This document shows, piece after piece, positions 2,733 to 3,908 of a stretch of DNA of 49,154 bases. This DNA is from a virus. Below the pieces are notes generated by a model, which worked only from the letters and a program-made list of their open reading frames with translations, was not told the origin of the DNA and did no database searches. The position numbers and the translations under genes were made by a program. Numbering within the stretch: position 1 is the first letter of the stretch; every line of letters begins with the position of its first letter. The stretch covers positions 1 to 49,154 of the IMG/VR virus record IMGVR_UViG_3300017963_000083; one strand, 5' to 3'.

Positions 2733-3488
2733 ATGGGTAAGCTTCACGAGTTGTTAGCAGTGGACACAGACAGAGAGAAGATTTTCAAGAAGGTGACCCA
2801 AGAAGGGGCCGACACTTTCCGCAAGAAAGCCGACCACTTCTTGGCGCACCACAAGACGTTGCGCATGAAAGACGACGAGCGCAAAATGGAAGAGGAAGCG
2901 GCCGAAGATCACAAGGAGATGGTAACTACCGTACCACAAAAGCTCGAGTACGTGGCCGGCCCGACCATCACCTACCTGGACACGATGTTACAGAAAGAGA
3001 AGACCAACCAACAGGCCACAGCAGATTTGGTGTTGCCCGATGGTTCCATGATTGGAAGTGGTCTCCCGGCCACTTTCCTACTCGGCCTCGAGAATCGACT
3101 GAAATTCATCCGTGGTCTGTACGAGGCGATACCTACTCTGAGCCCTGGCACAAAGTGGGAAGTCGACACTGTCATGGGAGATGGTGTCTTTCGGTCCGTC
3201 CACCCCGAGGTGAGCCAGAAGACCGAGAAACACCGCAAGTACGAGACCATCGCCGAGGCTACCGAGAACCACCCAGCTCAAGTCGCAGCGGTAGACGACA
3301 ATGTCACCGTAGGCGTGTTCACCACGCAGCGCTGGTCTGGCATGGTGTCGCCAGCCCGTAAGAGCGAGTTGTTGGCGCGTGTTGATTCTCTCATTGAAGC
3401 GGCCAAGCAGGCCCGGCAACGCGCCAACACGCAAGAGACTGTGAACGATACGATCGGTAAGAACATCATCGACTACATCAACGGGTAA
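2733..3488 (+). CDS. Conserved-type phage protein of unknown function
   Basis: A 251-residue soluble protein with a highly charged helical N-terminal third (residues 1-65, rich in Lys, Glu and Asp), a middle part with LVLPDGSMIGSG, and a helical C-terminus rich in Gln and Arg. A clear ribosome-binding site (AAGGGGA) precedes ATG 2733. No catalytic motif was seen. It is the last protein gene of the replication/Z module, so a role in DNA or nucleotide metabolism is possible but unsupported. Confidence 0.8.
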   Translation: MGKLHELLAVDTDREKIFKKVTQEGADTFRKKADHFLAHHKTLRMKDDERKMEEEAAEDHKEMVTTVPQKLEYVAGPTITYLDTMLQKEKTNQQATADLVLPDGSMIGSGLPATFLLGLENRLKFIRGLYEAIPTLSPGTKWEVDTVMGDGVFRSVHPEVSQKTEKHRKYETIAEATENHPAQVAAVDDNVTVGVFTTQRWSGMVSPARKSELLARVDSLIEAAKQARQRANTQETVNDTIGKNIIDYING

Positions 3489-3502
3489 CTTATGTTTGAC
3501 AG

Positions 3503-3590
3503 GTGGGCTAGATTTGGTGTGCGACAATCGCCCTTAACAGACGTTGCCGCATGTCGTAGTAAGACTCAGAGTAATGAGTATCGAGCCCAC
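3503..3590 (+). ncRNA. Candidate three-way-junction RNA upstream of the permuted tRNA
   Basis: GTGGGCT (3503-3509) is the exact complement of AGCCCAC (3584-3590). Inside, TGCGACA pairs with TGTCGTA (one G-U), and GACTC pairs with GAGTATC (one unpaired base). The fold has the same plan as the RNA at 2606, including a GTGGG-type closing helix. It contains no T-arm consensus, so it is not an ordinary tRNA. Function unknown. Confidence 0.4.
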
Positions 3591-3640
3591 AGTGTCAATA
3601 ACCCAAAGCCTGATGTTAGTGTCTGGAATGCATCACTCTC

Positions 3641-3720
3641 AAACCGGAGTCGCTGGTTCGAATCCAGCCGGCCCCTCCATTTTATGGGGCCGTGGGCAAG
3701 TGGCACGCCGCTGGATTGTT
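3641..3720 (+). tRNA. Candidate circularly permuted tRNA (3' half encoded before 5' half)
   Basis: The upstream half has CCGG, a 4-nt variable loop, a perfect T-arm (GCTGG-TTCGAAT-CCAGC, 3652-3668), the acceptor strand CGGCCCC (3669-3675), discriminator T and CCA (3677-3679). After six bases (TTTTAT) the exact partner GGGGCCG (3686-3692) follows, then T8 and a D-arm (GGC-AAGTGGCAC-GCC) with the A14, G15, G18-G19 and A21 pattern, G26, and CTGG, which pairs with the upstream CCGG. The 5' half therefore lies downstream of the 3' half, with the break in the anticodon loop. The outer flanks also pair (3627-3634 with 3729-3736). The anticodon cannot be fixed (GUC or GUU are options). The inner hairpin alone could be chance; the D-arm makes a tRNA likely. 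Confidence 0.6.
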
Positions 3721-3764
3721 GGTGTAACGATGCATTGGTAGACAAACACAAGGTGGCGGGTGGT

Positions 3765-3838
3765 GGTACCCTGGGAGAAGCTGCGTCGGTAAGGGGAACC
3801 GGAGTTGCAGCATGTTGCTCCCAGGGTACCTTTCTTTT
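3765..3838 (+). terminator. Rho-independent terminator after the structured RNA locus
   Basis: A perfect 13-bp stem (3765-3777 with 3818-3830) encloses a second hairpin (GCTGC/GCAGC with inner CGGT/ACCG) and is followed by TTTCTTTT. It closes the transcript that contains the permuted tRNA candidate and probably the whole replication/Z operon. Confidence 0.85.
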
Positions 3839-3908
3839 AATTGGCGAGACCGGAGAAGCCGCTGGCCGGTGACACTCGGGAGAGACCGAGACAAAAAAAG
3901 GACACAAC

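Follow-up and report, generated by a model that had tools for sequence, protein, structure and literature searches.

Organisation of the locus

The stretch of DNA analysed here (the window) is a phage contig of 49,154 bases from IMG/VR, which carries genes for capsid, portal and terminase and belongs to a tailed phage. The gene at 2733-3488 (+ strand) encodes a 251-aa protein of the DUF7873 family (PF25283) and lies directly 5' of a structured RNA element, of which this protein is the proposed partner. A 13-bp hairpin and the T-rich tract after it (3765-3839, + strand) resemble a terminator, with a loop longer than our scanner allows, and the RNA is probably transcribed together with DUF7873. 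Elsewhere in the window, at 131-2247, a PolA-type polymerase fragment, a PurZ-type 2-aminoadenylosuccinate synthetase (phrog_1211) and a dUTPase are encoded in a row, making a 2-aminoadenine (Z) genome possible for this phage.

The core of the RNA element is a tRNA-like module at 3644-3714, all on the + strand, in which the T-arm and 3' acceptor strand precede the 5' acceptor strand and D-arm; that is, the module is circularly permuted. It begins with CCGG (3644-3647), a remnant of the anticodon stem corresponding to positions 40-43, the 3' strand in tRNA order. The variable loop AGTC (3648-3651) follows, its C48 making the 15-48 Levitt pair, and then the T-arm GCTGG TTCGAAT CCAGC (3652-3668), with a stem of 3652-3656/3664-3668 and the loop TTCGAAT. 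Next are the 3' acceptor strand CGGCCCC (3669-3675), the discriminator T73 (3676) and an encoded CCA (3677-3679). The six-nucleotide linker TTTTAT (3680-3685), which places a U at position -1, closes the acceptor stem and leads into the 5' acceptor strand GGGGCCG (3686-3692); RNase P cleavage just before G3686 is possible, judging from this U(-1). Both acceptor strands are assigned by direct reading and by acceptor pairing across related units. T8 (3693) and the D-arm (3694-3709), with GG18-19 and A21, complete the stretch 3693-3710 together with G26, and CTGG (3711-3714; positions 27-30) supplies the 5' strand that pairs with CCGG at 3644-3647. An earlier note on this DNA had described the T-arm, both acceptor strands, T73, CCA, the 6-nt gap, T8 and the D-arm with GG and A21, and direct reading bears out each of them.

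The module sits within an imperfect basal stem. Its 5' strand (TGTCT..AATGCATC, 3620-3634) pairs with the 3' strand (GATGCATT..AGACA, 3729-3744), the helices, read directly, being AATGCATC (3627-3634) with GATGCATT (3729-3736) and TGTCT (3620-3624) with AGACA (3740-3744). Between the basal stem and the module lies an internal loop of 9 x 14 nt, with ACTCTCAAA (3635-3643) on its 5' side, assigned from the sequence and from the absence of a decodable-loop signal across 48 units (see below), and ATTGTTGGTGTAAC (3715-3728) on its 3' side, which holds a weak motif common to the units. The earlier note had placed the break in an extended anticodon arm. Four base pairs of the anticodon stem do form, but only four: the 31-39 position is A.A and the internal loop interrupts the helix.

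A 126-aa open reading frame (3492-3872) crosses the RNA locus, and the nearest relative of the window (L002) also has an open reading frame. A coding reading of the locus was rejected, since the two frames are dissimilar by eye outside the RNA motifs and the RNA covaries.

Detection of the element

A strict permutation-aware tRNA scan (5-bp T-stem with a TTCRA loop, 7-bp acceptor stem, T8 and D-loop GG/A), of the kind proposed in the earlier note, matched the window at exactly one site and did not match any of 200 dinucleotide shuffles; a looser scan of those shuffles gave 54 matches. When a covariance model was trained on 21 other units, with the window and L002 excluded, the window scored 60.2 bits (E = 1.1e-15). 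ARAGORN missed the permuted element when run on the window, Rfam at gathering thresholds returned no match to it, and a DNA-level search of annotated phages with the window RNA also gave none. With permissive Rfam settings the best full-length match was YrlA ('Y RNA-like', 24.2 bits), which covers 3627-3739 and includes the outer helix. We found no mention of permuted tRNAs in phage genomes, or of DUF7873, in the open-access literature searched. Permuted tRNA-like genes recur among phages, and standard tRNA finders miss them.

Conservation and covariation

Homologous units were collected with a finder that required acceptor and T-stem pairing as well as T8 and the D-loop GG; over the 48 units so defined, acceptor pairs are formed in 334 of 336 cases (best of 2000 shuffles, 221), T-stem pairs in 239 of 240, and T8 and the D-loop GG, both demanded by the finder, in 48 of 48 each. 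All seven acceptor pairs vary on both sides, so the homologues with compensatory acceptor changes that the earlier note had named as a check do exist. The same note had held that relatives should keep their acceptor and D-arm pairs; the D-stem pairs 10-25 to 12-23 are formed in all 48 units, alongside the acceptor pairing just given. In a 27-sequence alignment 99.7% of cells are paired and all 13 pairs vary on both sides. The covariation score of this alignment is 0.949, compared with 0.232 when shuffled, and sliding the partner by 1-3 columns reduces pairing to at most 58%.

The 15-48 Levitt pair provides the most independent evidence, since the finder did not use it: the pair is G-C in 23 units, A-U in 23 and something else in 2, and is thus G-C or A-U in 46 of 48. 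CCA is encoded in 35 of the 48 units and U(-1) is present in 28. Cyanophage units lack CCA and end in ACTT, TCTT or ATTT; cyanobacterial tRNA genes are not known to encode CCA.

The flank helices, including TGTCT/AGACA, had also been proposed in the earlier note, and their pairing in cis proves to be conserved across the 48 units: the mean energy is -20.4 kcal/mol in cis and -13.2 in trans, and the best of 5000 permutations among the units reaches -15.4, these permutations, like the other conservation shuffles, ignoring the phylogenetic relatedness of the units. A conserved protein-binding motif was sought in the flanks, where only the weak motif shared by units in the 3' internal-loop segment rose above shuffles (LLR 42.9; maximum of 12 shuffles, 32.1). 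The conserved entity at this locus is the RNA.

Linkage of the RNA to DUF7873

The protein encoded upstream of the RNA matches the DUF7873 profile at 221.8 bits (E = 1e-65; curated cut-off 27). An alignment of the family was built from 16 members, and a confident AF2 model (pLDDT 88) found no fold match in the PDB or in viral-protein libraries. No similarity to Ro60 or to any RNA-binding fold was detectable, and the pI is about 6.

The first two DUF7873 relatives found in IMG/VR (L002 and L003) carry a permuted element just downstream, with acceptor stems that differ from one another and are self-consistent. One or more RNA units lie just downstream of the DUF7873 gene in 29 of 31 DUF7873 loci, or about 27 of 29 independent loci once two near-duplicates are removed (L024 of L008, L032 of L007). 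The RNA-linked loci come from actinophages, cyanophages and phages of Vibrio, Klebsiella and Rhizobium, and no unit was seen at two loci, those of Lak phage B1 (L028) and a Microcoleus phage (L027). Where the distance was measured (25 loci), the first unit follows the DUF7873 stop codon on the same strand after a median of 167 nt; at L018 the distance is 1.6 kb. Several phages have two tandem units.

The association was also recovered without reference to the protein. Two DNA patterns describing only the T-arm, acceptor, CCA and complementary acceptor were run over 2.9 million viral contigs and returned 28 stretches, of which 17 hold a permuted unit, 15 of them non-redundant; patterns made up by a pair of ordinary adjacent tRNAs were not counted as units. 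DUF7873 is nearby in 10 of these 15 loci. The other five comprise a unit beside Ro60 (L037), one in an array (L056), one whose contig carries TROVE at a distance (L060) and two on contigs with neither gene (L039 and L046). DUF7873, a family that spans phages of several bacterial phyla, hereby gains its first functional lead, in the form of a candidate RNA partner encoded beside it in nearly every case.

Relatives linked to Ro60

In YrlA, the 5' and 3' ends pair into a large stem to which the Ro60 orthologue Rsr binds; PNPase is bound by a domain on top of this stem that resembles tRNA in its D-, T- and acceptor arms (PMC8394870; see also PMC7790460). The YrlA score of the window, 24.2 bits, lies below the RF02553 gathering score of 69. 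Ro60-linked phage units also miss this cut-off (36-40 bits), so it does not discriminate here, and DUF7873-linked units reach up to 38.8 bits, within the range of the Ro60-linked ones. No TROVE (Ro60/Rsr) gene is present in the window record, and TROVE is absent from 29 of 30 DUF7873-phage records and present in one.

The same architecture stands beside a true Ro60 gene (PF05731, PF25045, NF041674) at L037, where two permuted units (2057-2288, - strand) have plausible anticodon arms by eye (Val UAC and Leu CAA). A 2014 paper on YrlA is said to have reported Y RNAs near Ro60 in some phages. Both types of neighbour occur together in Rhizobium phage RHph_TM21B, which has an array upstream of an annotated TROVE gene. 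In this array GTTGCGA occurs eight times alongside three intact permuted modules, two of them with an encoded CCA. About 4 kb from this array is a DUF7873 gene with a permuted unit of its own that lacks GTTGCGA; the motif is likewise absent at the window. The array itself (L062:480-1680), a Y-RNA array that is not annotated, comprises about eight units (GTTGCGA...TTCG / ATCTC), one of which, at about 1220-1284, resembles an almost unpermuted tRNA-like insert.

The unit at L056 is part of an array adjoining a 507-aa protein (P0001) without a Pfam match, and a relative of this protein in L068 has two units upstream. In both loci the arrays lie upstream of the P0001 gene and share the flanks GGACATACACG / CCGATATG. 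The C-terminus of P0001 is possibly vWA-like, judged by eye, and its model is poor (pLDDT 57). P0001 is maybe a divergent Ro60.

Capacity to form a decoding tRNA

The anticodon-stem pairs 27-30/40-43 are formed in 42, 46, 43 and 40 of the 48 units, and the 31-39 pair is formed in 28 and unpaired in 20. A decodable loop was defined as seven nucleotides with U33, a purine at 37 and a paired 31-39, and every joint was enumerated between the tail after 31 and the head before 39. Such a loop could be rebuilt in 12 of 48 units, with no excess over the shuffled-tail null (mean 8.8, range 3-17). U33 is often unavailable, and no consistent joint position was found across the units. Simple joining at the anticodon loop was rejected on the basis of this enumeration.

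A permuted group I intron was considered as well, since by eye the window sequence allows a P1-like pairing of 5 bp (UUGUU/GACAA). It was rejected because Rfam gave no group I match and the terminator-like hairpin lies closely downstream; the permissive cmscan covered the window locus and 20 relatives, and permuted halves could score low in such a search. RtcB is found above cut-off in 5 of 30 phage records and RNA_ligase in 10 of 30; both are absent from several complete phages, including RHph_Y1_11, RHph_TM16 and Vibrio D497. The anticodon-loop result, the lack of a group I match and the patchy distribution of ligases together leave a spliced permuted tRNA unsupported. Of the 'permuted tRNA gene' of the earlier note, the real, conserved and circularly permuted module is supported, and maturation into a decoding tRNA is not.

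Some individual loci differ from the window. At L046:3711-3785 (- strand) and in L057, a permuted tRNA-Asp(GUC) lies inside an ordinary tRNA array, on a contig without DUF7873 or Ro60; if the halves are joined at 29/30, the anticodon arm is complete and has U33 and A37, and this gene is a candidate for a genuine permuted phage tRNA. The Leu-type units at L031:3829-3899, L016:3508-3592 and L044:4064-4150 seem to be split in the variable arm, with an anticodon-arm-like hairpin in the 5' half. Genes for Band-7 proteins, a gene type of RNA-repair operons, are found near permuted units at L029:3688-4560 and L039:4611-5372 (- strand).

Proposed role and alternative explanations

We propose that the element is probably a Y-RNA-like (YrlA-like) tRNA-mimic non-coding RNA that works with DUF7873 instead of Ro60. 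This is the simplest reading of the anatomy shared with YrlA, the parallel in RHph_TM21B, the YrlA scores and the absence of TROVE from most records. The earlier note had mentioned a tRNA mimic as a second option, and that idea fits better, given the YrlA-type architecture and relatives found beside Ro60 or, far more often here, DUF7873. In this reading, the tRNA-like module of T-arm, acceptor stem and D-arm caps the basal stem made by the 5' and 3' flanks. By analogy with YrlA and Ro60, DUF7873 would bind the basal stem or the internal loop. The module may in turn dock on a cellular tRNA-handling factor, such as PNPase or another exoribonuclease, RNase P, or CCA or modification enzymes. The RNA would thereby tether or gate DUF7873 and bring the protein to host RNA metabolism during infection. 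What this mechanism has to accommodate is a conserved tRNA-like fold on a basal stem, linked to DUF7873 and devoid of a decodable-anticodon signal.

Several points count against this assignment. DUF7873 has neither detectable similarity to Ro60 or an RNA-binding fold nor a basic pI, GTTGCGA is missing, the YrlA score of the window is low, and the units at L039 and L046 have neither protein on their contigs. The CCA encoded in most units is not obviously needed for YrlA function. It is unexplained by a mimic and may be a legacy of the parent tRNA, an aid to RNase P or the mark of a mature 3' end.

The module could instead be a decoy or competitive inhibitor that occupies a host defence enzyme attacking or modifying tRNA, with DUF7873 stabilising or presenting the RNA. 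An RNA that keeps acceptor, elbow and CCA but has lost the anticodon would escape cleavage in the anticodon loop, and some phages carry two units apparently derived from different tRNA types; the same idea has been raised for YrlA and an anticodon nuclease (PMC7790460). No target can be named, however, and a decoy alone does not account for an almost constant association with a single protein family, so we regard this role as rather unlikely. Alternatively, the locus could be a real permuted tRNA gene. DUF7873, or else host or phage enzymes, would then cut the transcript and ligate it within the anticodon region, and RNase P would open it to give a working tRNA. This reading would account for the frequent CCA and its absence from cyanophage units, as expected for cyanobacterial tRNA genes, as well as for U(-1) and the different tRNA types. 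The ligases found in some records and the tRNA-Asp of L046, readable as a complete tRNA on a contig without DUF7873 or Ro60, point the same way. Against it stand the rebuilt loops, which barely depart from the null and share no joint, the lack of a group I match in the loci screened with Rfam, and the complete phages with neither ligase family; we consider it quite unlikely. That DUF7873 is itself all or part of a splicing system by which bacterial viruses obtain working tRNAs from permuted genes, dispensing with the archaeal/eukaryotic splicing endonuclease, appears very unlikely.

Also very unlikely is a genuine YrlA served by a Ro60/Rsr encoded in the host. The architecture and the Rfam YrlA matches agree with it, but only one phage record holds TROVE, the hosts are of diverse kinds, Rsr is missing from many bacteria, and neither the DUF7873 linkage nor the missing motif of the TM21B Ro60-linked array would be explained. 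Tandem tRNA duplication followed by loss of the outer halves would give the observed order, and tmRNA_permuted and cyano_tmRNA have sub-threshold local matches to the T-arm and acceptor. A non-functional remnant of this kind, or a piece of a permuted two-piece tmRNA, is nevertheless extremely improbable: the strong covariation across diverse phages contradicts decay, and the tmRNA matches cover the acceptor and T-arm only, with no tag ORF or pseudoknot match.

If the element does work with DUF7873 as a Y-RNA-like mimic, this suggests that such mimics are not tied to Ro60 and that an unrelated protein can adopt them, so that the shared principle would be the tRNA-like module and not the protein. 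The docking target of these mimics is now directly testable in culturable phages of Rhizobium, Vibrio, Arthrobacter, Gordonia and Rhodococcus.

Comparison with known systems

Circularly permuted tRNA genes of algae and archaea resemble the phage element in placing the 3' half before the 5' half, with the CCA and linker in the centre and flanks that pair. They differ in that the element belongs to bacterial viruses, its decodable loop is not above chance and its joint is inconsistent. Permuted two-piece tmRNAs (RF04321, RF01851, RF01850) likewise have a permuted acceptor and T-arm and an internal linker, whereas the phage RNA has a full tRNA-type D-arm with GG and the Levitt pair. At the window, tmRNA models gave only sub-threshold local matches to the acceptor and T-arm, and no match to a tag ORF or pseudoknot. 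A tmRNA gene that is not among the listed annotations was seen in Gordonia phage Phendrix (L030:350-878; Rfam 89 bits).

The closest resemblance in overall plan is to YrlA (RF02553), which with Ro60/Rsr and PNPase forms RYPER and undergoes modification by TruB and DusA. In both RNAs paired flanks form a basal stem that carries a permuted module of T-arm, linker-closed acceptor stem and D-arm; both are encoded beside the gene of a known or proposed partner protein, and tandem units are possible in both. The phage RNA differs from YrlA in that NCCA is encoded in most units, some linkers are longer, and its neighbour is DUF7873 in place of Ro60.
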